Below, piece after piece: positions 2,909 through 24,995 of a DNA stretch of 33,409 nucleotides; within the stretch, counting starts at the first letter, position 1; the number at the start of each line of letters is the position of its first letter. Under the pieces are notes generated by a model. It worked only from the letters and a program-made list of their open reading frames with translations. It did not search any database and was not told the DNA's origin. Position numbers and translations under genes: made by a program. This stretch comes from a virus, in IMG/VR virus record IMGVR_UViG_3300020578_000256, positions 1 through 33,409 of that record; one strand, 5' to 3'.

Positions 2909-3613
2909 ATGTTAGAGCTATTGTACCTTCTAATAACTACACACATAACAATAGTATGTGTGACACTTTATCTACATCGTGGCATGGCACATCGTGGTAT
3001 TATTTTTCATCCTCTGTTAAGCCACTTTATTAGATTATGGTTATGGCTGAGCACTGGTATGGTTACAAAAGAATGGGTGGCTATACACCGAAAACATCAT
3101 AGATATTGTGAAAAGATAGGCGACCCACATAGTCCACATCAATTTGGATTACTAAAAGTTTTATTTTCTGGAGTATTTTTATATGTCAATTCAGCAAAAG
3201 ATAAACTCATGGTTGATACATATGGCGTTGGTACTCCTAATGATTGGATTGAGCGTAAGTTATACACACCTTACAATGGACTTGGCATTGCTTTATTACT
3301 TGTGTTAAATATTTTATTGTTTTCTTGGTGGGGTTTACTCATATGGCTAATTCAAATGGCATGGATACCATTTTGGGCAGCCGGTGTAATTAATGGTCTA
3401 GGCCATTGGTTTGGTTATCGCAATAATGAAACAAATGATAAGTCGAGAAATATAATACCATTTGGTTTTCTTATTGGAGGTGAAGAACTACATAATAATC
3501 ACCATGATAATCCTGCCTCACCGAAATTAAGTCAAAAATGGTGGGAATTTGATATTGGTTGGTTATGGTTAAAACTATTTCAAAAGATTGGCTTAGCTAA
3601 AATAGTAGAATAA
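2909..3613 (+). CDS. Membrane fatty-acid (acyl-lipid/acyl-CoA delta-9 type) desaturase
   Basis: This is a 234-aa integral membrane protein with the three histidine boxes of the stearoyl-CoA/DesC desaturase family: H23xxxxH28 (HRGMAH), H60xxH63H64 (HRKHH) and H195xxH198H199 (HNNHH). An extra NGLGH (H166) is also present; it is typical of the family as an added metal ligand. Hydrophobic segments lie at about 1-20, 38-52 and 122-165. It is shorter than most bacterial homologues but keeps all ligands, so it is probably active and introduces a cis double bond into host fatty acids. Its ATG follows the nrdB TAA with no gap, so it is co-transcribed with the RNR genes. It is best read as an auxiliary metabolic gene; the substrate and regiochemistry are inferred from family only. 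Confidence 0.9.
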   Translation: MLELLYLLITTHITIVCVTLYLHRGMAHRGIIFHPLLSHFIRLWLWLSTGMVTKEWVAIHRKHHRYCEKIGDPHSPHQFGLLKVLFSGVFLYVNSAKDKLMVDTYGVGTPNDWIERKLYTPYNGLGIALLLVLNILLFSWWGLLIWLIQMAWIPFWAAGVINGLGHWFGYRNNETNDKSRNIIPFGFLIGGEELHNNHHDNPASPKLSQKWWEFDIGWLWLKLFQKIGLAKIVE

Positions 3614-3625: not shown

Positions 3626-3700
3626 AGTTAAATCAAAAATGGCAATTCAAATAAACGGAACCACTGTTGTTGATGACAGTAGAGTCCTTCAAAATTTAGG
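3623..3700 (+). repeat. 78-bp direct repeat, copy 1 (leader plus start of fibre gene)
   Basis: These bases are identical to 5806-5883. The repeat begins 16 bases before the ATG and runs through the first 20 or so codons of the shared N-terminal module. Identity that includes non-coding leader sequence points to recent duplication or gene conversion rather than protein-level conservation. Confidence 0.9.
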
Positions 3701-4412
3701 CTCTGCACTTACCGTATCTAATGGCGGTACAGGCGCTTCTTCCCTCACCGCCAACTATGCTTTATTGGGCAACGGTACTTCGGCTGTTCAGGCAGTGGCC
3801 CCAGGTAGCAGCGGTAATGTGCTGACAAGCAACGGCACAACTTGGACAAGCGCCGCACCTGCTGGTGGCGGGTTTAGTAATTTACAAGTTTTTACGTCTT
3901 CTGGCACTTGGTCTGTACCTGCGGGAGTCACAAATTGCAAGGTAACCGTAACCGGCGCCGGTGGTGGGTGCGGCGACAATGGCAGCCAATTTATGGGAGG
4001 AGGCGGCGCTGGCGGCACCGCGATCAAATACGTGTCTCTGTCCGGCGGCTCGGCAACGATCACAGTCGGATCGGGTGGAACCAGCAGTACCGCTGGCGGA
4101 GCTAGTTCTTTTGTATATGGCGCTACAAACCTTACCGGCAATGGAGGGAATTCTAGTGGCCAGTATACCCCCAGTTTAGCGTATGGGGGGTCTGCGTCCG
4201 GCGGAAGTATAAATCTTGAGGGAGGAGACGGGTCAGGGGAAGGGGGAGGTAGCGCCCGTGTGAGCGTTGGAGGGTCTTCCTTTTGGGGCGGTGGTGGTGG
4301 TGGAAGCGTTGACTATGGTCAACGCGGTGGGCGTGCGTATGGCTCTGGTGGAAGCGGGGCCAGGGCTGCAGCAAGCGTCGGTGCGAACGGTGTTGTTGTT
4401 ATTGAATACTAA
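3639..4412 (+). CDS. Putative tail fibre, shared N-terminal module plus Gly-rich C-terminus (fibre A)
   Basis: This 257-aa virion protein is built of two parts. Residues 1 to about 75 form a module shared with the genes at 4670, 5822 and, more distantly, 6914 (MAIQINGTTVVDDSR, SNGGTG, LTSNGTTW). The rest (about 80-257) is a Gly/Ser-rich domain with repeated GGGGAGG-type tracts and a C-terminal VVVIEY strand, like Gly-rich phage tail-tip and receptor-binding domains. The likely role is host recognition: the common N-terminus docks to the baseplate or fibre trunk and the Gly-rich part reaches the receptor. It is followed 9 bases later by a small assembly-type gene. The region is visibly GC-richer than the neck and head genes. 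Function is inferred from architecture and position. Confidence 0.75.
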   Translation: MAIQINGTTVVDDSRVLQNLGSALTVSNGGTGASSLTANYALLGNGTSAVQAVAPGSSGNVLTSNGTTWTSAAPAGGGFSNLQVFTSSGTWSVPAGVTNCKVTVTGAGGGCGDNGSQFMGGGGAGGTAIKYVSLSGGSATITVGSGGTSSTAGGASSFVYGATNLTGNGGNSSGQYTPSLAYGGSASGGSINLEGGDGSGEGGGSARVSVGGSSFWGGGGGGSVDYGQRGGRAYGSGGSGARAAASVGANGVVVIEY

Positions 4413-4669: not shown

Positions 4670-5431
4670 ATGGCAATTCAAATAAACGAAACTACTGTCA
4701 TTGATGACAGTAGAGTCCTTCAAAATTTAGGATCAGCCCTTAGTGTATCTAATGGCGGTACAGGCGCAGCCTCCCTGACGGCCAACTATGTTTTATTGGG
4801 CAACGGTACCTCCGCGCTTCAAGCGGTGGCTCCGGGTAGCAGCGGTAATGTGCTGACCAGTAACGGCACTACTTGGACGAGTGCCGCCGCCGCTGCGGGT
4901 GGATTCAGCAACATGGCCGTCTTTACCTCATCAGGAACTTGGACTGTGCCATCGGGCATTACAAAGTGCATGGTGATTTGCACCGGAGCCGGAGGCGGCA
5001 CTAACTACCCAGGGCGCGAAAGCGGCGGCGGTGCAGGCGCTACTGTTATTCGCACTTATACGCTTTCGGGAGGTTCAGCAACTGTTACTGTGGCTGCGGG
5101 CGGAACAGGTGATGGTGGCAGTTCTTTATTTGCGTACAGCGCAACGACTATTACCGCAGGTGGCGGGCAAGGCCGCGCCGGCGGAACTCGGACTGGCGGC
5201 ATCGGAGGTACACCGGGTAATGGTGAGATAAACATATATGGCGGCGGCGGCATGGCTGCTGACGGGAGCGTTGGTGGTAATGGTGGGGCCTCTTATTGGG
5301 GAGGTGGCGGCATGACTTCGGAAGCCCAAGGCTCAAATGGACAAGCATTCGGTGGCGGCGCGGGTGGTCCTGGGCTGTATGGAAACGCATCGTATAACGG
5401 CGCAAACGGTATTGTTGTTATTTATTACTGA
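4670..5431 (+). CDS. Putative tail fibre, shared N-terminal module plus Gly-rich C-terminus (fibre B)
   Basis: This 253-aa paralogue of the 3639 product has the same first 75 residues or so (MAIQINETTVIDDSR, SNGGTG, LGNGTSALQ, LTSNGTTW), then a Gly-rich domain with tracts such as GGGGMAADG and a C-terminal IVVIYY. The Gly-rich halves differ clearly, while the link peptide (GGFSN, VFTSSGTW) is retained, as in fibres diversified at the tip. From the second half of the module its DNA is nearly identical to fibre C (for example 23 bases from AGTAGAGTCC onward). The start is the ATG 2 bases after the preceding stop. It is a likely receptor-binding fibre or tip protein. Confidence 0.75.
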   Translation: MAIQINETTVIDDSRVLQNLGSALSVSNGGTGAASLTANYVLLGNGTSALQAVAPGSSGNVLTSNGTTWTSAAAAAGGFSNMAVFTSSGTWTVPSGITKCMVICTGAGGGTNYPGRESGGGAGATVIRTYTLSGGSATVTVAAGGTGDGGSSLFAYSATTITAGGGQGRAGGTRTGGIGGTPGNGEINIYGGGGMAADGSVGGNGGASYWGGGGMTSEAQGSNGQAFGGGAGGPGLYGNASYNGANGIVVIYY

Positions 5432-11942: not shown

Positions 11943-14900
11943 ATGGCAAGAATATCAGTAAGAGCTGGCGTGCAAGGCGCTTCAGGTTATTCTGGTTATA
12001 GTGGAGATAATCCTGGCTCTAGTGGTTACTCCGGTAGATCCGGTTTTTCGGGTTCTGGTATCTCAGGTTACTCAGGTACCTCAGGTTACTCAGGCGTTTC
12101 CGGATATTCTGGTACTTCTGGATATTCAGGCATTTCTGGATATTCTGGCAATAGCACTTCAGGATTTTCTGGTTACTCTGGTTACTCAGGTTACTCAGGA
12201 TTCTCTGGTATATCCGGTTATTCAGGATTCTCAGGTATATCCGGCTACTCTGGTGATTCTGGTTACTCAGGTATCTCAGGTTACTCTGGAATTAATGGCA
12301 CTGTAGCATTTAGCGGCACCTCAGGTTACTCAGGCATTTCTGGATATTCTGGTACTTCTGGATATTCAGGCATTTCTGGATATTCTGGCAATAGTACTTC
12401 AGGCTTCTCAGGTTTCTCAGGTATCTCAGGTTACTCCGGTTTCTCAGGCATTTCTGGTTACTCTGGTATCTCTGGTTACTCTGGTATCTCAGGTTATTCT
12501 GGTTACTCAGGTATCTCAGGTTACTCTGGTACTTCTGGTTATTCAGGTATTTCAGGTTATTCTGGTGATAGCACTTCAGGATTTTCTGGCATTTCCGGTT
12601 TTTCTGGCATTTCCGGTTACTCCGGTTTTTCTGGCATCTCAGGGTTTAGTGGTTTTTCTGGCCAATCTGGTTTTTCTGGTGCTTCTGGTGCTTCTGGTTA
12701 CTCAGGCATTTCTGGATATTCTGGCGATAGTACTTCAGGATTTTCCGGTTACTCCGGTTTTTCTGGCATTTCTGGTTACTCTGGCTATTCAGGTAATTCT
12801 GGTTATTCCGGTTTTTCGGGCCAATCCGGATTTTCTGGGTTTTCTGGTATCTCAGGTTATTCTGGCATATCTGGTTACTCTGGTGCTTCTGGTTACTCAG
12901 GCATTTCTGGATATTCTGGCGATAGTACTTCAGGATTTTCTGGTTATTCAGGCGTTTCTGGTTTTAGTGGTTTCTCTGGCTATTCGGGACAATCTGGTTT
13001 CTCTGGTTATTCAGGCGCTTCGGGATATTCTGGCCGTGATGGTCAGTTTGGCGGTGCATCATTCTACTACAAGTTTGACACTAAAACAGACACAGCAGAT
13101 CCAGGCGCAGGACGTTTAAATGTTAATAATGCTACACTATCGTCAGCAACTACACTAACTATTCACGATCAAGACCGACTCCTCTCAAACATTTATTCGT
13201 TTCTTACAACAATTGACGATTCTTCAAGCCCAATCAAAGGCTACACTAAGATTACTGAAGAGGCGAATACTCTTAACTTTGTAATTTATGCTATTACTGG
13301 CACACATGTTGATGATACTTTACACTTCGATGTGCCTATTTCATATGTGTCTGGTGTTTCTACACCATTTTCAAATAGCACAAATGTTGTCATTACATTT
13401 ACCGTAACAGGCGATAAGGGCGACCAAGGTATTTCTGGTTTCTCAGGTATCTCCGGTTACTCTGGTTTTTCAGGTATTTCTGGTTACTCAGGTATATCTG
13501 GTTTCTCTGGCATATCGGGTTATTCAGGTTTCTCTGGCATATCTGGATATTCTGGTTACTCAGGTGTCTCCGGTTACTCAGGTATATCCGGTTACTCAGG
13601 ATTCTCTGGTATATCCGGTTACTCAGGATTCTCTGGTATATCCGGTTATTCAGGATTCTCAGGTATATCCGGCTACTCTGGTGATTCTGGTTACTCAGGT
13701 ATCTCAGGTTACTCTGGTATATCCGGTTATTCAGGATTTTCTGGTATATCCGGCTACTCTGGTATTTCTGGTTACTCTGGCTATTCAGGTATTTCTGGTT
13801 ACTCTGGTTTCTCAGGCCAATCGGGTTTTTCGGGCACTTCTGGTTATTCAGGTATATCAGGATTTTCAGGTATATCTGGATATTCAGGTGATAGCACTTC
13901 AGGTTACTCTGGATATTCTGGTATCTCAGGTTACTCTGGATATTCTGGTATCTCAGGTTACTCAGGATTCTCTGGTATATCCGGTTATTCAGGTACATCT
14001 GGTTATTCAGGTATTTCTGGTTACACAGGCTCTCGCTCATATTCTGTAACAAACAGTGGATCTAGTGCATATGTAATTGATGGGTCAAATAATCCAACTT
14101 TATATTTGCTTCGTGGTTTTTCTTATATTTTTAATGTAAACGCATCAGGTCATCCATTTTGGATTAAAACTGCTGCGGTTACAGGCACAGGCAGCGCATA
14201 TAGTAGTGGCGTAACTAATAACGGAGCAGCAGTTGGCGTAATTATTTTTGCTGTGCCGTATGATGCACCGAGCACATTATATTATATTTGTCAATATCAC
14301 GGTGGTATGGTTGGTACCATTTCAATTAGTGATCTTGGTCCAAGTGGTTACTCAGGTATATCAGGTTACTCAGGTATATCAGGTTACTCAGGTATATCCG
14401 GTTACTCAGGTATCTCAGGTTATTCCGGCATATCTGGTTACTCTGGTATATCCGGTTATTCAGGATTCTCTGGTATATCCGGTTACTCAGGATTCTCTGG
14501 TATATCCGGTTATTCTGGTATTTCTGGTGCTTCCGGTCCATCAACTACAATTAATGCTACAAATGACACATCTACAGCTTCAGATTTTTATCCAGTATTT
14601 GTTGCTGCAACTGGTTCAAATCAAACCGCAACTGCATCATCATCTAAACTTTATTTCAGACCTTCAACTGGTAAACTAAGCGCCACTGATTTTAATGCGC
14701 TCTCAGATGTAACTTATAAAGAAGATATTCAACCAATTCAAAATGCATTGAATAAAATATTGGATCTTCGTGGTGTTTCATATATAATGAAAGATTCAAA
14801 AGAAAAATCAATGGGTGTTATTGCTCAAGAAATTGAAAAAATTATGCCTGAAGTTGTTTCGCAAAATAGTGATGGTCTAAAAACAGTTGCGTATAACAGA

Positions 14901-14975
14901 ATTATTGCTGTTTTAATTGAGGCTGTTAAAGAACAACAAGAAATAATTAATGACATTTATAAGAAACTAAGATGA
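11943..14975 (+). CDS. Giant GYSG-repeat (collagen-like) tail fibre with cupredoxin-like domain and S74 chaperone
   Basis: This 1010-aa protein is mostly G-X-S triplets (GYSGISGYSGFSG) in three blocks (about residues 12-364, 493-696, 800-865). Two globular domains interrupt them. Residues about 365-492 form a beta domain (FYYKFDTKTDTADPGAG, RLLSNIY) seen in other phage collagen-like fibres. Residues about 699-798 form a cupredoxin-like domain with H737 (SGHPFW), C783, H786 and M789 (CQYHGGMVG), the type-1 copper ligand set. The C-terminus is an S74 chaperone with S921/K926 (SDVTYK). It is probably a long trimeric fibre for host contact that sheds its chaperone. Its last four bases overlap the next gene (ATGA). 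Copper binding is inferred. Confidence 0.85.
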   Translation: MARISVRAGVQGASGYSGYSGDNPGSSGYSGRSGFSGSGISGYSGTSGYSGVSGYSGTSGYSGISGYSGNSTSGFSGYSGYSGYSGFSGISGYSGFSGISGYSGDSGYSGISGYSGINGTVAFSGTSGYSGISGYSGTSGYSGISGYSGNSTSGFSGFSGISGYSGFSGISGYSGISGYSGISGYSGYSGISGYSGTSGYSGISGYSGDSTSGFSGISGFSGISGYSGFSGISGFSGFSGQSGFSGASGASGYSGISGYSGDSTSGFSGYSGFSGISGYSGYSGNSGYSGFSGQSGFSGFSGISGYSGISGYSGASGYSGISGYSGDSTSGFSGYSGVSGFSGFSGYSGQSGFSGYSGASGYSGRDGQFGGASFYYKFDTKTDTADPGAGRLNVNNATLSSATTLTIHDQDRLLSNIYSFLTTIDDSSSPIKGYTKITEEANTLNFVIYAITGTHVDDTLHFDVPISYVSGVSTPFSNSTNVVITFTVTGDKGDQGISGFSGISGYSGFSGISGYSGISGFSGISGYSGFSGISGYSGYSGVSGYSGISGYSGFSGISGYSGFSGISGYSGFSGISGYSGDSGYSGISGYSGISGYSGFSGISGYSGISGYSGYSGISGYSGFSGQSGFSGTSGYSGISGFSGISGYSGDSTSGYSGYSGISGYSGYSGISGYSGFSGISGYSGTSGYSGISGYTGSRSYSVTNSGSSAYVIDGSNNPTLYLLRGFSYIFNVNASGHPFWIKTAAVTGTGSAYSSGVTNNGAAVGVIIFAVPYDAPSTLYYICQYHGGMVGTISISDLGPSGYSGISGYSGISGYSGISGYSGISGYSGISGYSGISGYSGFSGISGYSGFSGISGYSGISGASGPSTTINATNDTSTASDFYPVFVAATGSNQTATASSSKLYFRPSTGKLSATDFNALSDVTYKEDIQPIQNALNKILDLRGVSYIMKDSKEKSMGVIAQEIEKIMPEVVSQNSDGLKTVAYNRIIAVLIEAVKEQQEIINDIYKKLR
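11977..13035 (+). repeat. GYSG-type coding repeat block 1
   Basis: Imperfect 9-base (triplet-peptide) repeats encode G-Y/F/I-S. Third codon positions vary heavily (GGT/GGC/GGA, TCA/TCT/TCC, TAC/TAT), while first and second positions are almost constant. Occasional non-canonical units (GDSTSG, GQSG, GASG) break the pattern at intervals. Confidence 0.9.
12189..12289 (+). repeat. 101-bp perfect repeat within GYSG fibre, copy 1
   Basis: This stretch is identical to 13617-13717 over 101 bases, synonymous positions included, although surrounding repeats differ at many third positions. That points to recent recombination between blocks of the same gene. Confidence 0.85.
13420..14030 (+). repeat. 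GYSG-type coding repeat block 2
   Basis: This is the second run of 9-base G-X-S coding repeats in the 1010-aa fibre, between the central beta domain and the cupredoxin-like domain. It begins with a GDKGDQG collagen-like lead-in and ends with GYTGSRSYS. Confidence 0.9.
13617..13717 (+). repeat. 101-bp perfect repeat within GYSG fibre, copy 2
   Basis: This is the second copy of the 12189-12289 repeat. The two copies lie 1428 bases apart in the same reading frame, so recombination between them would delete or duplicate 476 codons in frame. Confidence 0.85.
14339..14535 (+). repeat. GYSG-type coding repeat block 3
   Basis: This short run of highly regular GISGYS units lies between the cupredoxin-like domain and the S74 chaperone. 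Several neighbouring units are identical at the DNA level (GGTATATCAGGTTACTCA repeated), so this block looks the youngest. Confidence 0.9.
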
Positions 14976-16231
14976 GTGTAACATTAAGTAGCCTATTAGG
15001 CTCTGGTATATCTGGTTATTCTGGTTATTCTGGTCAAGGACCATCTGGTTATTCTGGATACTCTGGTATTTCGGGATTTTCAGGAAGATCAGGATATTCA
15101 GGATTTTCTGGTATCTCTGGTTACTCAGGTATATCAGGTTACTCAGGCATTTCCGGATATTCTGGTATCTCAGGTTATTCAGGTATCTCCGGTTATTCAG
15201 GTATATCTGGTTTCTCTGGTATATCTGGTTTCTCTGGTATATCCGGTTACTCAGGATTCTCAGGTATATCCGGTTATTCTGGATATTCTGGTATCTCAGG
15301 TTATTCAGGTATCTCAGGTTACTCTGGTGTCTCTGGTTATTCCGGCATATCTGGATATTCAGGTGATAGCACTTCAGGTTACTCTGGATATTCTGGTATC
15401 TCAGGTTACTCAGGATTCTCTGGTATATCCGGTTACTCAGGATTCTCTGGTATATCCGGTTATTCTGGTTACTCTGGTATCTCTGGTTATTCCGGCATAT
15501 CTGGTTACTCTGGTATCTCTGGTTATTCCGGCATATCTGGTTACTCTGGTGATTCTGGATATTCAGGTATATCTGGTTTCTCTGGCATATCTGGTTATTC
15601 TGGATATTCTGGTGATTCTGGATATTCTGGTTATTCTGGTATATCCGGTTATTCTGGATATTCTGGTATATCCGGTTACTCAGGTATCTCAGGCACTTCA
15701 GGTTATTCTGGTGATAATCCAGGTTCTAGTGGTTATTCTGGTTTCTCTGGCTTTGGTTTATCTGGTTATTCTGGTATATCTGGTTATTCTGGTGCTTCTG
15801 GCCCATCAACTATAATTAATGCTACAAATGATACATCTACAGCTTCAGATTTTTATCCAGTATTTGTTGCAGCCACCGGCTCAAATCAAACTGCAACTGC
15901 ATCATCATCTAAACTTTATTTTAGACCATCAACTGGCGAATTAAGCGCTACTGATTTTAATACTTTATCGGATTTATTATATAAAGAAGATATTCAACCA
16001 ATTTATAACGCATTAAACAAAATACTTGACATTCGTGGTGTTTCATATATAATGAAAGACTCTAAGAAAAAACATCTTGGTGTTATCGCTCAAGAAGTTG
16101 AATCAATTATACCTGAAGTTGTATCTGAAAATTCTAATGGAGCTAAATCAGTTTCTTATAACAATATTATAGCTGTTTTAATCGAGGCTGTTAAAGAACT
16201 AAAAGAGGAAATTGATAAATTAAAGAAATAA
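14972..16231 (+). CDS. Second GYSG-repeat (collagen-like) tail fibre with S74 chaperone
   Basis: This 419-aa paralogue of the preceding fibre has G-X-S repeats over residues about 11-277. A conserved linker follows (INATNDTSTASDFYPVFVAA, LYFRPSTGELSATDF), then an S74 chaperone from about 333, with S333/K338 (SDLLYK) and a C-terminal coiled coil (VKELKEEIDKLKK). The linker plus S74 region is nearly identical in protein to that of the 1010-aa fibre. The repeat block lacks both inserted globular domains. The ATG overlaps the upstream stop (ATGA), so the two fibres are translationally coupled. It probably forms a shorter fibre or a cap on the long one. Confidence 0.85.
   Translation: MSVTLSSLLGSGISGYSGYSGQGPSGYSGYSGISGFSGRSGYSGFSGISGYSGISGYSGISGYSGISGYSGISGYSGISGFSGISGFSGISGYSGFSGISGYSGYSGISGYSGISGYSGVSGYSGISGYSGDSTSGYSGYSGISGYSGFSGISGYSGFSGISGYSGYSGISGYSGISGYSGISGYSGISGYSGDSGYSGISGFSGISGYSGYSGDSGYSGYSGISGYSGYSGISGYSGISGTSGYSGDNPGSSGYSGFSGFGLSGYSGISGYSGASGPSTIINATNDTSTASDFYPVFVAATGSNQTATASSSKLYFRPSTGELSATDFNTLSDLLYKEDIQPIYNALNKILDIRGVSYIMKDSKKKHLGVIAQEVESIIPEVVSENSNGAKSVSYNNIIAVLIEAVKELKEEIDKLKK
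15001..15804 (+). repeat. GYSG-type coding repeat block 4
   Basis: This is the repeat block of the 419-aa fibre. It shares long DNA stretches with block 2 of the upstream gene, for example the GGTGATAGCACTTCAGGTTA unit at 15361 and 13888. That fits exchange between the two paralogous genes. Confidence 0.9.
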
Positions 16232-16246
16232 AATTTTGGAATTATT

Positions 16247-18178
16247 ATGAAATACAGTGTGGTGATACCGACATATAATCATTGTGATGATTTTCTTAAA
16301 CCATGTATTGAATCTATCGTTCAGTATACCGATTTAGAAGATGTAGAAATAATTATATCTGCTAATGGGTGTACTGATAATACAAAAGATTACCTAAACG
16401 ATCTTAAATCTTTCATACCAAATCTAAAAGTGATTTGGTCTGATGAACCACTTGGTTATCCAAAAGCTACAAATCTTGGTATTTTAGCTTCTTCTGGTGA
16501 AAAAATAATTCTTCTCAATAACGATACTAAATTTTTAAATCAAGAAAAAAATACTTGGTTAAATTTATTAGCATCTGGCTTTGATAATTCAAAATGTGGT
16601 ATAACTTGTGTGGTAAAAGAATACTCACGAGTAATGCAAAAAGATTTTGCGGTATTTTTTTGTGTAATGATTGATCGTAAAGTTTTTGACACAATTGGTT
16701 TACTTAATGAAGAATATGGCACAGGCTCTGGTGAAGATATGGAGTTTTGTATTTTAACTGAGGCTGCGGGTTTTGAAGTTGTCGAAGTTTCAAGTAAAAT
16801 AAAACTTAATAAAAAATACTTTACTGGTTCATTTCCAATCTATCATCTTGGCGAAGGCACAGTTCACGATAATAAATTAGTGCCTAATTGGAAAGAAATA
16901 TTTTTAAAGAATGCAATTAGAGTTGCAACTAAGTATAATCAAGATTGGAAAAAAGAAAAAAATATGAATCACCTTAAAATAGGCATTATAACACCATTAT
17001 ACAATGATATTGAACATATTTTTCATGCCATTAATTCTGTTAAAACACAAAATATGGGAAATGTTGTTCATTATATATACGATGATTGTTCAACTGATGG
17101 TGTAGAAAAAGGATTACAAGAACTTTTATTTGCAAACACATCTTTAGTTTACATTAAAGGCGAACAAAATAAAGGACAAGCTTACGCAAGAAATCGAGCA
17201 ATTGAATCTGCGCTTGCTGTTGGTTGCGATTACATTGCATTTTTAGATTCAGATGATGTTTGGTTTCCAAATCATTTACAAAGAGCCTTAGAAACTTTAC
17301 AAACACAAAACTGTAATGTTGTTTATTCAACACCGCAATTTTGTGATGAAAACGGCAATGTTCTTTTTCCTTATAATATTGTTGTGCCACATACATTTAT
17401 TGGTAAACAATTAAGACACAACAATTTTATTTGGATATCAAGTGTAGTTGCTAATGCACGGTGTTTTTTAGATACAAAATTTGATGATACAATAAACAGT
17501 GTTGAAGATTGGGATATGTGGTTAAGATTATATGAAAAAGGCCATGTGTTCTTTAAGGATTCAGAAATTACTATTCGTTATTTGGTTAGAAACAATACTG
17601 AAGCATCTAAAGGTGCCTCAAAAATGAATTTATTTTGGCAAAAACATCAACAATTACCATCTTTAAAATTACATTTGGCCTGCGGCCATGATTATGATGA
17701 AAATTATATTAACATTGATTTATATGCACCTGAAGATGCTAAATGCGATGTTCGTCTTGATGTACAAAAACTACCATATGATGACAATACTGTTGATGAA
17801 ATTAAAGCGTTTCATATCATTGAACATTTTCATTTTTTTGAAATACAAGAGGTTCTCAAAGAGTGGTATCGTGTGTTAAAACCTGGCGGCAAATTATATC
17901 TTGAAACGCCAGACTTTTTAGAAACTTGCCGATCATTTGTTGAAGGTAATCCAGCAACCGGCATGGATATTGAACAGTGGCGTATTCTTTTATACGGACA
18001 TTTTTTTGCTCATGCGTGGATACCAGGCCAAACACATAAATTTTTATTTACTGAAACACAATTAAGAGCAAATCTTGGTTGGGCTGGTTTTCAAACAGTT
18101 AACCGTGTTCGACCTGCATCTAAATATGTTATGAATGAAACACATCATTTGTTTTTGACAGTGGAAGCTTTTAAATGA
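16247..18178 (+). CDS. Trimodular GT2-GT2-methyltransferase protein
   Basis: This 643-aa protein fuses three enzymatic domains. Domain 1 (about 1-215) is a GT-A family 2 glycosyltransferase (VVIPTYNHCDDF, ILLNNDTKF at 88-96, GEDMEF with E163/D164). Domain 2 (about 241-455) is a second GT2 (GIITPLYNDIEH, DDCSTDG, metal-binding FLDSDD with D334-D337, EDWDMWLRL). Domain 3 (about 470-643) is a class I SAM-dependent methyltransferase (LHLACG at 475-480, VRLDVQKLPYDDNTVDEI, HIIEHF, LKPGGKLYLETPD). It starts 15 bases after the GYSG fibre and its stop overlaps the next GT gene (ATGA). It would build and methyl-cap a short glycan on a virion protein or host surface polymer; the acceptor is unknown. 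Domain 1 has an NND in place of the usual DXD. Confidence 0.85.
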   Translation: MKYSVVIPTYNHCDDFLKPCIESIVQYTDLEDVEIIISANGCTDNTKDYLNDLKSFIPNLKVIWSDEPLGYPKATNLGILASSGEKIILLNNDTKFLNQEKNTWLNLLASGFDNSKCGITCVVKEYSRVMQKDFAVFFCVMIDRKVFDTIGLLNEEYGTGSGEDMEFCILTEAAGFEVVEVSSKIKLNKKYFTGSFPIYHLGEGTVHDNKLVPNWKEIFLKNAIRVATKYNQDWKKEKNMNHLKIGIITPLYNDIEHIFHAINSVKTQNMGNVVHYIYDDCSTDGVEKGLQELLFANTSLVYIKGEQNKGQAYARNRAIESALAVGCDYIAFLDSDDVWFPNHLQRALETLQTQNCNVVYSTPQFCDENGNVLFPYNIVVPHTFIGKQLRHNNFIWISSVVANARCFLDTKFDDTINSVEDWDMWLRLYEKGHVFFKDSEITIRYLVRNNTEASKGASKMNLFWQKHQQLPSLKLHLACGHDYDENYINIDLYAPEDAKCDVRLDVQKLPYDDNTVDEIKAFHIIEHFHFFEIQEVLKEWYRVLKPGGKLYLETPDFLETCRSFVEGNPATGMDIEQWRILLYGHFFAHAWIPGQTHKFLFTETQLRANLGWAGFQTVNRVRPASKYVMNETHHLFLTVEAFK

Positions 18179-19140
18179 CCAACATATTATGTTCTATTTC
18201 GACCAGAGGCCGATATGACACAACTTTGCCAATGGCAATTCAATCAGTTATAACACAAACTTTAAAACCAAATAAGTTGGTTATTTTTGATGATAATGAA
18301 CAACCAAAAGATATAAGAGAAATACAACACTATGAATATCTTTTTCGTATGTTGGATGAAAAAAATATCGAATGGCAAGTTATTTTTGGTCAGAAAAAAG
18401 GCCAACATTTTAATCATCAAATGGCCAATACCATGGATTATGAATGGGTTTGGCGTTTAGATGATGATACTATAGCTGATTCAAATGTTTTAGAAAATTT
18501 ATATAAACATACCGCATCAGATGTTGGTGCTGTTGGTGGTTCTGTACTAACACCGCCATTTATTAAAGGATTAAATTCAACTGGTAAGATTGACGATATT
18601 GATGAACAAAATATTCAATGGGATTATATTAAAGATATAAAAGAAGTAGATCATTTACATTGTTCATTTTTATATCGTGCTGGAATACATGACTACAATT
18701 TAGGTTTATCTCAGGTTGCTCACCGAGAAGAAACACTTTTTACTTTTGGTTTAAAACAAAAAGGATATAAACTTCTTGTTATACCAAATACAGTAACTTG
18801 GCATTTAAGAAATCGAAATGGTGGCATTAGAACATTTCAAAAGGATATGTTTGACCATGATGAATATATTTTTAGAAATCATTTAGAGTATAAAGATAAA
18901 ACAATCGTTGTTTTAAACTCTGGCATGGGCGATCATTTGGTGTTTACTAGTGTTTTACCATTAATAAAAAATGCTGCAGTATTTTCGTGTTATCCTGAAA
19001 TAGTTCCAGGCAGAAGCATCGATGATGCTATGAGACTTTTTGGTGATTTAGATTGTTACAGTATTTACAAAAAAATGGATCAATGGAATTGGAAAAATTC
19101 TTTAGAGAAAGCTTTCAGAAAGATGTATGGTGTAAAATGA
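18175..19140 (+). CDS. GT2 glycosyltransferase fused to N-terminal half of a GT9-like glycosyltransferase
   Basis: This 321-aa protein has an N-terminal GT2 domain (about 1-230): ILCSISTRGRYDTTL, KLVIFDDNEQP, metal-binding WRLDDDT with D96-D98, VGAVGGSV. The C-terminal 80 residues begin TIVVLNSGMGDHLVFTSVLP (G250-D253), which resembles the Rossmann N-terminus of GT9/heptosyltransferase-type GT-B enzymes. That half stops abruptly at KMYGVK. The stop overlaps the ATG of the next gene, whose product looks like the matching GT9 C-terminal half, so the GT-B enzyme appears to be made as two chains or is newly broken. It is coupled to the upstream gene by an ATGA overlap. Confidence 0.8.
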   Translation: MTNILCSISTRGRYDTTLPMAIQSVITQTLKPNKLVIFDDNEQPKDIREIQHYEYLFRMLDEKNIEWQVIFGQKKGQHFNHQMANTMDYEWVWRLDDDTIADSNVLENLYKHTASDVGAVGGSVLTPPFIKGLNSTGKIDDIDEQNIQWDYIKDIKEVDHLHCSFLYRAGIHDYNLGLSQVAHREETLFTFGLKQKGYKLLVIPNTVTWHLRNRNGGIRTFQKDMFDHDEYIFRNHLEYKDKTIVVLNSGMGDHLVFTSVLPLIKNAAVFSCYPEIVPGRSIDDAMRLFGDLDCYSIYKKMDQWNWKNSLEKAFRKMYGVK

Positions 19141-19565
19141 TTATTATTTCTCCATACTCAAAAGAACTTAGAGATGGTAAAAAAAATCCAAAAAATTATC
19201 CATATTGGAAAGAATTAATATCTCTTATTCAAGAACCAATCATACAAGTTGGCATCGATGGTGAAGAGCAATTAGTTGAAAATTTTCGTAAAAATTTATC
19301 AATTACTGAGTTGCGAAACCTCATAAACGAATGTCGAATATGGATTTCAGTTGATAGTTTTTTTCAACATTTAGCTTGGAATTCTAACAAACCAGGTATT
19401 GTGCTTTTTGGACAGTCTGATCCTTTAATATTTGGTCATTCGGAAAATATTAATTTATTAAAAGATCGTTCGTATTTGCGTGAAAAACAATTTTGGTTAT
19501 GGGAACAATGTGATTATAGAGAGGAGGCTTTTGTAAAACCGGCAGAAGTTCTAAAGTATTTGTGA
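19137..19565 (+). CDS. C-terminal half of a GT9-like (heptosyltransferase-type) glycosyltransferase
   Basis: This 142-aa protein carries the donor-binding half of a GT-B/GT9-type enzyme: MIIISPYSK, an IIQVGIDGE strand-turn, then SVDSFFQHLAW (D73, H78), NKPGIVLFGQSDPLIFGH. The VDSxxxHLA and KPxxxLFGxxDP pattern is the heptosyltransferase hallmark. It has no N-terminal domain of its own; that seems to lie at the end of the 18175 gene, with which it overlaps by ATGA. I chose ATG 19137 over an in-frame upstream start at 19053, because the overlap is the local rule and the extra 28 residues look like out-of-frame translation of the upstream gene. Confidence 0.75.
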   Translation: MIIISPYSKELRDGKKNPKNYPYWKELISLIQEPIIQVGIDGEEQLVENFRKNLSITELRNLINECRIWISVDSFFQHLAWNSNKPGIVLFGQSDPLIFGHSENINLLKDRSYLREKQFWLWEQCDYREEAFVKPAEVLKYL

Positions 19566-19594: not shown

Positions 19595-20548
19595 ATGGCT
19601 GCTCCAACAACAAGATTACAGTTTAAAGATTATTGTCTTAGAAGATTAGGTTGGCCAGTTATTGATATTAATGTAGATGACGATCAAGTTGATGATCGTA
19701 TTGATGATGCCTTGAGTTTTTTCTATGATTACCACTATGATGGTACAGAAAAACTCTTTATGAAGCATAAAATTACTCAAACTGACATTGACCGCCGTTG
19801 GATTTATGCTCCCGATGCGGTTCTTTTTGTTATTGGTGTTTTACCGTTTGACGATTCAAATTCATCAGTTAACATGTTTGATCTTAGATATCAACTAAGA
19901 CTGCATGATTTATATGACTTTACTTCAGTTTCTTATGTGTCTTATGAAATTACAATGCAACACATACAAACTTTAAATCTTCTTTTTTCTGGAAAACCAC
20001 AATTTCGTTTTAATCGAGTGCAAAACAAAGTGTTTTTAGATATTGATTGGGAAAGAGATGTAGAAGTTGGTGACTATGTAATTATTGAGTGTTATCGTAA
20101 AATGAATCCAGAACTTGTTAATTTAACTGGCACAGTAAACCTTGTTTCTGGTAATACAACAGTCATAGGCACAGGAACAAAATTTGACCAAGAAATTGTT
20201 GAAAATGATTTTGTAAATTTTGGTGATGAATCACTTCAAGTTAGAACAATTAATTCACCAACAAATATTACACTTACGACAGCGCCAGCGGCATCAAATG
20301 CAACAGCAACAATGACAGTAACTGGTTTAACTGATGTTTTTGATAATCGTTTTTTAAAAGCATATGCCACTGCAAAAATTAAAATGCAATGGGGCTCCAA
20401 TCTTAAAAAGTTTGCTGGTATTCAAATGCCAGGTGGTGTAACTCTTAATGGTCAACAAATTTATGATGAGGCTATAGAAGAAATTAAAAACTTAGAAGAA
20501 CAAATGTATAATTCAACTAGTATGCCTAGTGAAATCTTGTCGGGATAA
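19595..20548 (+). CDS. gp13: Neck protein gp13-like (head-tail connector)
   Basis: This 317-aa product matches the T4-like gp13 neck protein in position (first of 13-14-15-16-17) and in its N-terminus: YCLRRLGWPVIDINVDDDQV, RIDDALSFFYDYHYDG and LFMKHKI are typical of cyanophage/T4-like gp13. Gp13 with gp14 forms the ring that closes the filled head and joins it to the tail. Residues about 176-250 form a Thr-rich beta insertion (VSGNTTVIGTGTKF, NITLTTAPAASN) of the type found as decorations in phage structural proteins. The C-terminus returns to the helical gp13 pattern (MQWGSNLKKFAGIQMPGG). Confidence 0.85.
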   Translation: MAAPTTRLQFKDYCLRRLGWPVIDINVDDDQVDDRIDDALSFFYDYHYDGTEKLFMKHKITQTDIDRRWIYAPDAVLFVIGVLPFDDSNSSVNMFDLRYQLRLHDLYDFTSVSYVSYEITMQHIQTLNLLFSGKPQFRFNRVQNKVFLDIDWERDVEVGDYVIIECYRKMNPELVNLTGTVNLVSGNTTVIGTGTKFDQEIVENDFVNFGDESLQVRTINSPTNITLTTAPAASNATATMTVTGLTDVFDNRFLKAYATAKIKMQWGSNLKKFAGIQMPGGVTLNGQQIYDEAIEEIKNLEEQMYNSTSMPSEILSG

Positions 20549-20551
20549 TTT

Positions 20552-21460
20552 GTGGCCACTAATCTTTATTTCAATAATTTTCCTCAAAATCAAATAACAC
20601 AAGAACAACTTCTTGTTGAAGATTTGGTTATTGAAGCTTTACAAATTTATGGCATGGATGTTTATTATTTGCCAAGAACTGTTCGAGCAAATAATGAAAT
20701 TGATTATATTTATGGAGAAGATACTCTTAAAGAATATGTAACTGCACATCCAATCGAAATGTATCTTGAAAATGTGACAGGTATGGATGGTGAGGGTGAT
20801 TTTATTTCTAAATTTGGTTTAGAAATTCGTGATGAAATATCGGTGTTGGTTTCTCGCAGAAGATTTCAATATGCAACTTCTCCGTCAGATTTAGAAAGAC
20901 CAAGAGAAGGTGATTTAATTTATATTCCTCTTTTAAAGAATTTTTTTGAAATTATCTTTGTAGAACATGAAAATGATCAAGCAATGTTTTATACACTTGG
21001 TCGCGGCCGAGGTGGAAATGTTTATGTTTATGCTCTTAAACTAAAACAATTTGTATTTTCAAATGAAATTGTTGAAACTGGTGTTTTTGAAATTGATGAG
21101 CAAATTCGTGACAATTACAGTCGTACAAAAATTACATTAACAACTGGCTCTGGTCATTATGCTAATGGTGAAATAGTTTATCAAGGTACAAGTCTTGCTG
21201 CGGCAAATGCACAAGCTATTGTGCAAAGCTCCGATGTTATTAGCGCAAGTAAATATGTTAACATTATTCATGTTCAAGGAACATTTACTTCAGCAAATGT
21301 AATTGGTGAAAGTTCTGGTGCTGTTTGGACAGCAAATGTTGTATCAGATACAGCGACAATGAATGATGCGTTTGAAGATATTGTAGACAATAACCGTATA
21401 CAAACAGAAAGTGATAGCATTCTTGATTGGACAGAAACCAATCCATTTGGTGAAACATAA
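20552..21460 (+). CDS. gp14: Neck protein gp14-like
   Basis: This 302-aa partner of gp13 in the neck ring is recognised by order and by the family N-terminus (NFPQNQITQEQLLVEDLVIE, YYLPRT) and C-terminus (ESDSILDWTETNPFGE). The start is GTG 20552, three bases after the gp13 stop; no upstream ATG fits. A beta-rich insertion (about 200-270: GHYANGEIVYQGTSL, ANVIGESSGAVW) makes it longer than T4 gp14 (about 256 aa). The stop TAA shares its last A with the gp15 ATG. Confidence 0.85.
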   Translation: MATNLYFNNFPQNQITQEQLLVEDLVIEALQIYGMDVYYLPRTVRANNEIDYIYGEDTLKEYVTAHPIEMYLENVTGMDGEGDFISKFGLEIRDEISVLVSRRRFQYATSPSDLERPREGDLIYIPLLKNFFEIIFVEHENDQAMFYTLGRGRGGNVYVYALKLKQFVFSNEIVETGVFEIDEQIRDNYSRTKITLTTGSGHYANGEIVYQGTSLAAANAQAIVQSSDVISASKYVNIIHVQGTFTSANVIGESSGAVWTANVVSDTATMNDAFEDIVDNNRIQTESDSILDWTETNPFGET

Positions 21461-22452
21461 TGTTAGGTAATGAGTTTTTTAGCCATCGTACAATACGAAA
21501 AGTTGTAGTAGCTTTTGGTACTTTATTTAATGATCTTGTTGTTACAAGAACAACTCAAAGTGGCGTAAAAAAAGAATATTTTAAAGTACCATTATCCTAT
21601 GGTGCAAAAGAAAAATACATCACTCGTATTACTTCTGATCCATCTTTAACAAAATCAATCGCTACACTTGTACCAAGAATTTCATTTAATTTAGATGGTT
21701 TATCTTATGATCCGACTCGTAAACAAATAACAACCATACAAAATTTTTCGGCAAATACTTCAACTGGACTTAAAACTCAATACGCTCCAATTCCATATAA
21801 CTATGAATTTTCTTTATCAATCTATGTAAGAAATACTGAAGATGGCACACAAATACTTGAACAAATATTACCATTTTTTACACCAGATTTTACTGTAACT
21901 GTTGATTTTATTCCTAATATGAATAAAAAGTATGATTTACCAATTATACTTAATTCAGTATCATCTTCTATTGATTATGAAGGAGACATGTTAAGCACAA
22001 GATTAATTCTTTGGGATTTATCATTTACTGTTAAAGGATTTATTTGGCCACCAATTAAATCTGGTGATGTTATTCGTCAAGCAAATACAAATATTTTTAT
22101 TGAACCACAAAATTTAGATGGACAAGTTGTTTACGTTGATTTTGCAAATGGGACTTCACAGTTTCAAAGGTCTGAAACTATTCGTGTAGATGATCGTCAA
22201 TTAACAGGCAAAGTTCTTTATTTTAGTAATAGTAATACAGGCACTTTAATTGTTGGTAACTTAAACAAATATCTTGAAGTTGGAGACAAAGTTGTTGGTG
22301 ATTTAAGTAATGCCTCATTTACAATTTCAACTTTAGATTCTACACCATTAAAACAAGTGCAAATTATAACAACACCATTGCCAAACACTGCTGATCCAGA
22401 TGATGCTTTTGGATTTAATGAAACTATTACATATTGGCCTAATGTAACATGA
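21460..22452 (+). CDS. gp15: Tail sheath stabiliser/tail completion protein gp15-like
   Basis: This 330-aa gp15 family protein caps the tail terminus and joins it to the neck. Typical features are MLGNEFFSHRTIRKVVVAFG, LFNDLVV, KVPLSYGAKEKYI, and IPYNYEFSLSIYVRNTEDG with EQILPFFTPDFT. It is longer than T4 gp15 (about 272 aa) because of a C-terminal beta region (about 215-310). It overlaps gp14 by one base and the small terminase gene by four (ATGA), so the run is translationally coupled. Confidence 0.9.
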   Translation: MLGNEFFSHRTIRKVVVAFGTLFNDLVVTRTTQSGVKKEYFKVPLSYGAKEKYITRITSDPSLTKSIATLVPRISFNLDGLSYDPTRKQITTIQNFSANTSTGLKTQYAPIPYNYEFSLSIYVRNTEDGTQILEQILPFFTPDFTVTVDFIPNMNKKYDLPIILNSVSSSIDYEGDMLSTRLILWDLSFTVKGFIWPPIKSGDVIRQANTNIFIEPQNLDGQVVYVDFANGTSQFQRSETIRVDDRQLTGKVLYFSNSNTGTLIVGNLNKYLEVGDKVVGDLSNASFTISTLDSTPLKQVQIITTPLPNTADPDDAFGFNETITYWPNVT

Positions 22453-22847
22453 AAAAAATAAACGAAAAATTATCTGAAATATTTAATGTTGAGCCAATTG
22501 AAGTTAAAACTATTAAACAAGAAATTGTGCCTACTGAAGAAACCAATGTAATAGAATCTGATGCTGAGTTTGCTCGTAAAAATATTCGTGAGTTAATTCA
22601 AAAAGGCGGTTTTGCCATTGAAGATTTATTACAAGTTGCAAAACACTCTGAGTCTCCAAGAGCATATGAAGTTGCCGCCAACATGATAAAAAATTTATCG
22701 GATCTAAATAAAGATTTACTAGAAGTACAAAAAAGAAAAAAAGATTTAGTTGTAGATAAAACATCTTCAAATGGAGTTAATGTTGATAAAGCTGTTTTTG
22801 TTGGCTCTACCGCAGAATTAATGAAACTCATTAAGGCAAATAAGTAG
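22449..22847 (+). CDS. gp16: Terminase small subunit gp16-like
   Basis: This 132-aa small terminase recognises and loads DNA for packaging with gp17. The conserved core is DAEFARKNIRELIQKGG, IEDLLQVAKHSESPRAYEV, MIKNLSDLNKDLLEVQKRKK, which aligns with the T4 gp16 helical core. It is shorter than T4 gp16 (164 aa) with a less extended C-terminus. It overlaps gp15 by ATGA. Unusually, gp17 does not follow directly: a Dps-like gene is placed between. Confidence 0.88.
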   Translation: MKKINEKLSEIFNVEPIEVKTIKQEIVPTEETNVIESDAEFARKNIRELIQKGGFAIEDLLQVAKHSESPRAYEVAANMIKNLSDLNKDLLEVQKRKKDLVVDKTSSNGVNVDKAVFVGSTAELMKLIKANK

Positions 22848-22854
22848 GATTAAA

Positions 22855-23289
22855 ATGGAAAAATTAATTGAACAAATGAAAGTTATTTTAGGCACAACTT
22901 TTGGTTTATATTTTAAAGCTCACACATATCATTGGAACGTTGAGGGTCCAGATTTTGCTCAATACCACGATTTTCTTGGTAATTTCTATCAATCTGTTTT
23001 CAATAATGTAGACACAATCGCTGAACACATTCGTGCTCTTGATGTTTATGCACCAACATCTTTACCAAGAATGTTAGAACTATCTGACATTCCAAACTCA
23101 GAATTAATACCTAGTGCTCTCAATATGATGGCTAATTTAAGAGATGATAATGAACGTTATATGATTCATCTTCGCGCTGGTATCGCAGTAGCTGAGCTAG
23201 CAAATGAACCTGCCGTTAGTAACTTTCTACAAGATATTTTAGATAAACATCAAAAGCAAGGTTGGATGCTTCGCAGCTTCACTAAGTAA
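22855..23289 (+). CDS. Dps-like miniferritin
   Basis: This 144-aa ferritin-like protein has the Dps signature HTYHWNVEGPDF, then H38 and a D53xxxE57 motif (VDTIAEHIRALD), ending in QGWMLRSF. Dps proteins oxidise and store iron with peroxide and protect DNA, as 12-mers. Of the usual intersubunit ferroxidase ligands, H26, H38, D53 and E57 are visible. The Asp normally four residues after the second His is Gly (G42), with N43 next to it, so the centre is altered. There is no long Lys-rich N-terminal tail of the E. coli DNA-binding type. The gene sits between gp16 (7-base gap) and gp17 (one-base overlap), hence is expressed late. It may protect phage DNA during packaging or be a co-opted structural part; both are inference. 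Confidence 0.85.
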   Translation: MEKLIEQMKVILGTTFGLYFKAHTYHWNVEGPDFAQYHDFLGNFYQSVFNNVDTIAEHIRALDVYAPTSLPRMLELSDIPNSELIPSALNMMANLRDDNERYMIHLRAGIAVAELANEPAVSNFLQDILDKHQKQGWMLRSFTK

Positions 23290-24938
23290 TGATTGAAAAT
23301 TATCTTGGTAACGCTAGTCTAAAAAAGATTGGCGTTACAATACCATTTACCGAAGAAAACATTCTTGAGTACAAAAAATGTACTGAAGATCCAATTTATT
23401 TTGTTGATAATTATTGTTACATTGTTACGCTTGATCATGGTATTCAAAAGTTTAAGTTATACGATTGTCAAAAAGAAAAGATTGATCTAATTCACAAAGA
23501 ACGCCGTGTTATCATTATGGAGTCACGGCAGGCAGGTAAAACCACCACAGCAGCTGCATACATTCTTTGGTATACATTATTTCAAGGCGATAAAAATGTT
23601 GCTATTCTTGCCAACAAAGATAAAACTGCTCGTGAAATCTTATCACGCTATCAGTTAATGTATGAAAATCTTCCACTTTGGATGCAACAAGGTGTCAAAA
23701 CTTGGAACAAAGGCGATGTAGAGTTAGAAAATGGTTCTAAAGTTTTTACTGCTGCAACAACTCCTGCTGGTATTCGTTCTAAATCTGTAAACTTATTGTA
23801 CATTGACGAAGCAGCAATTATTCCAAACAACGTTGCTGATGCATTTTTTACTTCGGTATATCCTGTTGTTTCTGCTGGTCAAACAACTAAAATTCTCATT
23901 ACTTCTACACCACTTGGTTATAATCATTTTTGGAAGTTTTGGAATGATGCGGAGAATGGTCGAAACGGATTTACATCGTTGTTTATTCCATATTGGAAGA
24001 TTCCTGGTCGAGATGAAAAATGGGCAGATGAACAACGTAAAGTTCTTGGCGATGTCAAATATAATCAAGAAGTTCTTTGTAAATTTCTTGGCTCTTCACT
24101 TACACTTATTCGTGCTGATGTTATTGAACAAATGTCTTATAACGAACCAATCTATCAAAAAGATGGTTTAGACATTTTTGAAATGCCTGAAAAAGGTCAT
24201 TCATATATTGTTGTTGCAGATACAGCTAAAGGTGTTGGTGGCGACTATTCTGCATTTGTAATTGTTGATATTACTGAAGTGCCTTATAAAGTGGTTGCTA
24301 AATATAGAGATAATCAAATAGCACCGATGTTATATCCATCTGTTATTTACAGAGCAGCATTAGATTACAATAATGCTTATGTGCTTGTTGAGGTAAATTC
24401 TTCAGAGCAAGTTGCTCATATTTTATATCAAGAATATGAATATGAAAACATTTTATTTGTTCAAAGAGATTCAAAAGGTCAAAAAGTTTCAGGTGGTTTT
24501 GCCGGTGCAGGCAAAACACAACTTGGTGTTTCAACTGATAAAAGAGTTAAACGAATAGGTTGTTTTAACTTTAAGTCTTTGTTAGAGGAGAAAAAATTAT
24601 TAGTGTTTGATGCAGATATTATATCAGAAATTTCCACATTTATTGAGTCTAGAGGGTCTTACGCAGCTGATGAAGGATACCATGATGACTTGGTAATGCC
24701 GTTAGTTCTTTTTGGATGGTTAACAACAAATCCATATTTTAGAGAAATTACGGATGTAAACCTTCGTAAAGCGGTTTATGAACAAAGAATCAAACAAATT
24801 GAAGAAGATATGTTACCAGTCGGTTTTATTAATGATGGGCAACAAGAAGAAGTTATAATTGATGGAAAAGATGTATGGGGAAATTATGATACACAAGAAA
24901 AAACACCACCAGCGGGTTATTTACCTTCTAGGTTGTGA
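23289..24938 (+). CDS. gp17: Terminase large subunit gp17-like (packaging ATPase/nuclease)
   Basis: This 549-aa packaging motor has an N-terminal ATPase with Walker A SRQAGKTT (K84/T85) and Walker B LLYIDE (D173/E174), followed by the coupling motif ITSTPLG. The C-terminal RNase-H-like nuclease has D311 (VVADTAKG, GGDYSAFVI) and the HDDLVMP acidic pair (D466/D467). It cuts concatemeric DNA and drives it into the prohead through the portal. The length is a little under T4 gp17 (610 aa). The ATG overlaps the Dps stop by one base, so this gene is translationally tied to Dps. Confidence 0.95.
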   Translation: MIENYLGNASLKKIGVTIPFTEENILEYKKCTEDPIYFVDNYCYIVTLDHGIQKFKLYDCQKEKIDLIHKERRVIIMESRQAGKTTTAAAYILWYTLFQGDKNVAILANKDKTAREILSRYQLMYENLPLWMQQGVKTWNKGDVELENGSKVFTAATTPAGIRSKSVNLLYIDEAAIIPNNVADAFFTSVYPVVSAGQTTKILITSTPLGYNHFWKFWNDAENGRNGFTSLFIPYWKIPGRDEKWADEQRKVLGDVKYNQEVLCKFLGSSLTLIRADVIEQMSYNEPIYQKDGLDIFEMPEKGHSYIVVADTAKGVGGDYSAFVIVDITEVPYKVVAKYRDNQIAPMLYPSVIYRAALDYNNAYVLVEVNSSEQVAHILYQEYEYENILFVQRDSKGQKVSGGFAGAGKTQLGVSTDKRVKRIGCFNFKSLLEEKKLLVFDADIISEISTFIESRGSYAADEGYHDDLVMPLVLFGWLTTNPYFREITDVNLRKAVYEQRIKQIEEDMLPVGFINDGQQEEVIIDGKDVWGNYDTQEKTPPAGYLPSRL

Positions 24939-24943
24939 AAATA

Positions 24944-24951
24944 CTAAATAG
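24944..24951 (+). promoter_or_regulatory. T4-late-type promoter motif CTAAATAG before gene 18
   Basis: CTAAATAG lies 44 bases before the tail-sheath ATG and 6 bases after the terminase stop. A strong AGAGGAGA ribosome site (24983-24990) precedes the ATG. The distance is the longest of the seven, leaving a short leader; the sheath is needed in many copies. Confidence 0.65.
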
Positions 24952-24995
24952 AGAATCAAGTAATTGATTCATACTTATAACAAGAGGAGAAATCC

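Follow-up and report, generated by a model that had tools for sequence, protein, structure and literature searches.

A glycosyltransferase and methyltransferase cassette that accompanies collagen-like Gly-X-Ser tail fibres in phages: a candidate system of virion glycosylation

What do the sugar-transferring enzymes of a phage act upon when their genes stand immediately behind those of its tail fibres? Phage glycosyltransferases (GTs) encoded within fibre regions are usually taken to modify either the host surface or DNA, and a virus that decorates itself with sugar is known so far from only few other phages. The question is raised here by a virus record of 33,409 bases (termed here the window, that is, the whole stretch of DNA analysed), which carries T4-like genes: nrdA and nrdB and genes for fibres, neck, terminase, sheath, tube, portal, scaffold and capsid. 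A first-pass annotation of this DNA had read a string of genes behind two of the fibres as a phage-encoded fibre glycosylation system. The analysis reported here supports that reading, in that enzymes and fibres co-occur whichever of the two is used for searching, and do so in unrelated phages as well; glycosylation itself remains an inference.

The two fibre genes lie on the plus strand and overlap, the start of fibre B (419 aa; 14972-16231) sharing an ATGA at 14972 with the stop of fibre A (1010 aa; 11943-14975). Both proteins, which are the proposed glycan acceptors, score above the cut-off for PF01391 and PF13884 and thus have the architecture of a collagen-like phage fibre with a phage-type C-terminal chaperone (for fibre A, Pfam Collagen at 1e-82 and Peptidase_S74 at 2e-15). 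Gly-X-Ser arrays are found in fibre A within residues 39-369, 490-698 and 799-867, with two non-repeat domains between them and the Peptidase_S74 chaperone at the C-terminus, and in fibre B within residues 23-279, again with a C-terminal Peptidase_S74 domain. Serine occupies the Y position in 197 of the 209 Gly-X-Y triplets of fibre A and in 86 of the 87 triplets of fibre B (together 283 of 296). It is written with all six serine codons, and the X position is mixed (Tyr, Ile, Phe, Asp, Thr and others); hence the arrays are not a recent clonal repeat.

Several features of the window lie outside the arrays. The non-repeat domain at residues 699-799 of fibre A (window 14037-14339) contains a pattern HPFWIKT ... 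YYICQYHGGMVG that recalls, as far as sequence can tell, a type-1 copper (cupredoxin) site; Pfam and PDB sequence searches with these residues gave no match. Directly behind nrdAB is a fatty acid desaturase gene (2909-3613; PF00487, 8e-15), and the genes at 3639-4412 and 4670-5431 both match the tail fibre assembly family phrog_863, an apparent duplication.

The enzymes are encoded by three genes, also on the plus strand. ORF643 (16247-18178), which starts fifteen bases past the end of fibre B, comprises two GT2 domains, GT2a (about residues 1-232) and GT2b (about 245-445), and a class I SAM methyltransferase (about 473-643); Pfam recognizes PF00535 in two stretches (1e-39; 136.5 bits against a cut-off of 23.3) and PF08241 (6e-10). 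ORF321 (18175-19140) comprises a third GT2 domain, GT2c (residues 1-240; PF00535 at 2.7e-5, 24.6 bits, cut-off 23.3), and the putative N-terminal half of a GT9 enzyme (residues 239-321, with a GMGD motif). The C-terminal half of the GT9 (142 aa; 19137-19565; motifs SVDSFFQH and SDPLIFGH) matches PF01075 at 3e-8 (33.7 bits, above the cut-off of 22). ORF321 and the GT9 C-half gene are termed here the core of the cassette. A gp13-like neck (head-tail adaptor) gene (19595-20548, plus strand; phrog_211, 8.5e-41) bounds the cassette, the gene order thus being fibre A, fibre B, ORF643, ORF321, GT9 C-half and neck gene. ATGA overlaps recur at 18175 and at 19137 (19137-19140) and, because the latter junction thereby takes the same form as those at 18175 and 14972, the GT9 C-half gene most likely starts at the ATG at 19137, not at the TTG at 19053 that opens its reading frame. 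Except for this refined start, the first-pass description--a cassette right behind two fibres with serine at every third residue, made of three overlapping genes with three GT2 domains, a SAM methyltransferase and a split GT9, and placed in the structural region before the neck genes--is borne out, the N-terminal half of the GT9 being supported by its motif, homologues and predicted fold and not by Pfam.

Catalytic motifs are present in all of the cassette's enzyme domains, and among these are a D-rich metal-binding motif and an acidic catalytic region in each GT2 domain (NND and GED in GT2a, DSDD and ED.DMW in GT2b, DDD and REET in GT2c); the DDD, REET and WH motifs of GT2c are invariant in an alignment of 38 homologues. 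Membrane helices are absent, in that no 19-residue window of any cassette protein comes up to a hydropathy of 1.6. A match to a GtrB-like PHROG is limited to residues of the GT domain, and the membrane helix by which GtrB-type O-antigen conversion would be recognized is missing. Among named phages, ORF643 has only partial matches of low identity and ORF321 is matched only in phage P19250A.

The GT9 N-half was not detected in ORF321 by Pfam. That the C-terminus of ORF321 nevertheless corresponds to this half is supported by the GMGD motif, by two homologues (L126 and L163) in which GT2, GT9N and GT9C all lie within a single open reading frame, and by the predicted fold of the fused L163 protein, whose model (mean pLDDT 84) places further alpha/beta lobes behind the GT2 domain. 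A frameshift or sequencing error as the origin of the split was considered and rejected: the first reading frame ends in ATGA in 105 of 123 split homologues, and the junction is found in P19250A as well. Because of the fused homologues, the additional lobes of the fused model and the recurrence of this junction, the two GT9 halves are most readily understood as coupled chains of a single enzyme, though this is an inference.

The best Foldseek match of the ORF643 model (AF2, pLDDT 81.6) is chondroitin polymerase K4CP (1.5e-25). Polypeptide GalNAc-transferases are among the best solved matches of GT2c (E about 1e-8), but chondroitin polymerase, TarP and RmlT score about equally, and these fold-level matches therefore leave the acceptor undecided. 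For the GT9 C-half, the closest relative with a solved structure is the heptosyltransferase I WaaC (profile E 0.007); up to E 1, no entry named TibC appeared among the PDB matches either of the joined GT9 halves or of the C-half profile.

The principal evidence is the distribution of the core, that is, of the GT2c-GT9N and GT9C gene pair. One search of viral contigs started from the enzymes, the queries being ORF321, ORF643 and an alignment of ORF321 homologues, and the fibre playing no part. The alignment search yielded at least 570 viral homologues; among 84,980 prokaryote genomes there were three matches, all on metagenome-assembled contigs and one lying 4.2 kb from a Gly-X-Ser fibre, so that the family, judged by sequence, is almost confined to phages. 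When only loci that are distinct by core sequence and have at least 4 kb upstream are counted, 32 of the 44 cores retrieved through the enzyme alone are accompanied by a Gly-X-Ser/Thr fibre within the locus, and 36 are if the rest of the contig is included. Cassette-free loci anchored on the same gp13-like neck gene served as control: the fibre is present in 0 of 20 (versus 32 of 44; Fisher p = 2e-8), and an array of five repeats occurs in 0 of the 13 control contigs taken whole (about 857 kb in all), whereas the fibre is present in all eight distinct neck-anchored loci in which the cassette is preceded by sufficient sequence. The control loci are less closely related (their neck proteins are about 69% identical), and for this reason common descent is not ruled out by the neck-anchored comparison on its own.

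The converse search of viral contigs used only a DNA pattern for GYS-GIS-GYS repeats. The core is found in 40 of the 60 loci so fetched that have at least 2 kb downstream, and in 2 of the 22 that have upstream sequence only; for whole contigs of at least 15 kb, the counts are 32 of 63 with the fibre versus 0 of 12 fibre-free controls. Where core and fibre occur together, the shortest distance between the two is 10.5 nt at the median; 55 of 88 pairs lie within 50 nt of each other and 86 of 88 are on the same strand. These counts overstate independence, since the loci share ancestry: grouping by shared non-cassette genes puts 74 of the 88 into one group, beside 13 small groups, a result that arises because common tail-fibre families connect otherwise different phages. 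The check proposed at first pass, namely whether GT genes and GYSG fibres go together, is strongly positive in both directions.

The carriers include phages unrelated to that of the window. P19250A (KX815270.1; L060), a siphovirus that is cultured on IMCC19250, infects a Methylophilaceae host and differs from the window in its structural genes, has in order a 1203-aa Gly-X-Ser fibre, a methyltransferase, GT2c-GT9N (60% identity) and GT9C, with the same 4-base overlap. (The product of its positions 21390-24995 is annotated as a tail length tape-measure protein; this looks wrong, inasmuch as the sequence is that of the 1203-aa repeat fibre.) Across loci the core stays the same while what precedes it takes several forms: a GT2-methyltransferase of about 430 aa, a GT2-GT2-methyltransferase, a methyltransferase alone, or longer arrays. 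Because the methyltransferase recurs across these forms, it can be counted among the regular members of the set. Three loci (L065, L087 and L048) encode very long Gly-X-Ser fibres, which reach 3275 aa and about 830 repeats.

The association has exceptions in both directions. About half of the fibre contigs lack the core, many of them being fragments, and other GT2 genes are not clearly more frequent on these (12 of 31) than on controls (3 of 12). Conversely, no Gly-X-Ser/Thr array was found on the shorter core contigs L053, L310, L294, L268, L263, L296 and L051, nor anywhere on the 200,570-base contig L265, in which the core lies, together with FkbM-type and other methyltransferases, between the gp23 capsid and nrdA genes. 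The first-pass annotation had held that a GT cluster in relatives without GYSG fibres would refute its reading; such clusters exist as a minority, mostly on short fragments and also on L265, so that the coupling stands as strong and not as absolute. In view of the fibre-less cores and core-less fibre contigs, the link is not obligate and, given exceptions such as L265, other virion proteins may be substrates of the cassette as well, or it may have another role.

If the fibre is the acceptor, which residue would carry the glycan? Serine had been proposed initially, with tyrosine as an option. In the collagen-like reading frames of core-bearing loci, Y is serine in 91% of triplets. Near the same core, four loci (L273, L311, L316 and L317) have Gly-Pro-Thr arrays of up to about 310 triplets, which we take to resemble the repeat of the Bacillus protein BclA; in L273 and L311 at the least, other parts of the contig hold Gly-X-Ser arrays as well. 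What the two kinds of fibre share is a hydroxyl residue at Y; tyrosine at X is not shared. Because the Gly-Pro-Thr relatives retain the same enzymes without a tyrosine-rich X position, serine or threonine is favoured and tyrosine is made unlikely: the comparison points, by inference from sequence, to O-linkage through Ser/Thr.

The reading that we consider likely, while no chemistry has been seen and the modification is inferred rather than shown, is that the cassette glycosylates and methylates fibre Ser/Thr. An O-glycan would be attached to the repeated serine at Y of fibres A and B; soluble phage enzymes from the same gene string would assemble it in the cytoplasm of the host at a late stage of infection. 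The conserved core, in which GT2c is joined by two chains forming one GT-B enzyme (the split GT9, presumably kept in step by the ATGA overlap), would make the shared part of the glycan; further sugars would be added by GT2a and GT2b of the upstream gene, which differs from phage to phage, and the ORF643 methyltransferase would O-methylate the product. The fibre as acceptor, the Ser/Thr linkage, the chain-starting enzyme, sugar methylation and late expression are all inferred. The T4-type late promoter TATAAATA has only two matches in the window, no more than chance and none near the cassette; late expression therefore rests on gene order alone. The likely benefit, likewise inferred, is solubility, protease resistance, stability of a proline-poor triple helix, or shielding.

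The main rival holds that the target is a glycan of the host surface (the core or O-chain of lipopolysaccharide), whose modification during infection would either block superinfection or keep progeny off debris; adjacency to the fibre would then reflect receptor binding and masking that co-evolve within a host-recognition region. GT9 is a family of lipopolysaccharide heptosyltransferases, WaaC being the nearest solved relative of the C-half, and cytoplasmic heptosyltransferases work without a membrane helix. Pelagimyophage GTs in the same genome region are, moreover, read by their authors as O-chain modifiers (PMC7029224). A receptor-masking enzyme would, however, be expected to vary with the host receptor, whereas a single conserved core (mostly 58% identity and up) accompanies a single fibre type in unrelated phages; the cassette includes no GtrB-type membrane GT; and the genes for fibres and enzymes overlap in a single string within the structural region. 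We regard this explanation as unlikely. Core and fibre could also be found together only because both sit in a recombining host-recognition region, which counts against the fibre reading.

Two further targets are conceivable. The acceptor might be another virion protein (capsid, neck or a different fibre), the Gly-X-Ser fibre being merely a frequent neighbour; L265, with its core near gp23 and no array in 200 kb, fits this, as does the precedent of glycans on mycobacteriophage capsid and tail-tube subunits (Freeman et al. 2023, as cited in PMC12619734). Since the fibre is directly adjacent in 55 of 88 cases and the hydroxyl residue at Y is preserved across fibre types, this is judged improbable. 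Least of all do we expect the enzymes to glycosylate or hypermodify phage DNA, which we hold to be very improbable: GTs that do so exist in phages (a reference cited in PMC12619734) and GT2b weakly matches a TET-associated GT (PF20691, 9e-4, below cut-off), but the genes lie in the structural rather than the replication region, and DNA modification is unsupported in P19250A, the Pfam matches of whose 32 scanned proteins include no base-modifying enzyme.

That many phages retain a GT2/split-GT9/methyltransferase set next to a single kind of fibre suggests that at least some phage GTs modify the virion itself. The idea is directly testable: the candidate acceptor is defined (every third residue), the enzymes are named and a relative, P19250A, is in culture. 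If true, it would add a case from phages to the glycosylated collagen-like proteins and might account for the stability of proline-poor Gly-X-Ser fibres. More tentatively, and with rather more doubt than confidence, a collagen-like fibre with Ser/Thr at Y and its own glycosylating and methylating enzymes may constitute a mobile two-part module that moves as a unit between unrelated phages, giving a mucin-like or proteoglycan-like fibre densely covered with sugar, which glycosylated Ser/Thr would stabilise as hydroxyproline stabilises animal collagen.

Parts of such a system have precedents. In mycobacteriophages, glycans on virion proteins are linked to phage-encoded GTs (Freeman et al. 2023, Cell Host Microbe, as represented in PMC12619734, PMC12691614 and PMC13313380), and the authors of PMC13313380 predict glycosylated virions from a GT together with a methyltransferase, the combination found here; there the glycans are placed on capsid and tail-tube subunits, at the C-termini, and not on repeat fibres. 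The present cassette meets the criterion for a phage-encoded virion glycosylation system that GT genes lie in the structural gene region and are linked to a virion protein. The heptosyltransferases TibC and AAH, which act on many serines of the adhesins TibA and AIDA-I (PMC4358343), are likewise encoded beside their substrate, but TibC is not among the GT9 sequence matches, and the cassette's GT9 is split and joined to a GT2. The BclA exosporium protein of Bacillus (PMC6222408) is collagen-like and carries an oligosaccharide with an O-methylated sugar, but is a bacterial spore protein. Chondroitin polymerase K4CP (PDB 2z86) shares with ORF643 the tandem GT-A domains in one chain, whereas ORF643 has a C-terminal methyltransferase, and there is no evidence that it is a polymerase. 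In the host-recognition clusters of pelagimyophages (PMC7029224), GTs likewise neighbour tail fibres and occupy the same part of a T4-like genome; there, however, GT8 dominates, host O-chain modification is inferred and no link to collagen-like fibres is drawn. A literature search of incomplete coverage found no paper linking phage collagen-like fibres with GTs. Phage virion glycosylation and TibC-type serine heptosylation being already known, what seems new is the recurrent pairing of this cassette with collagen-like fibres.
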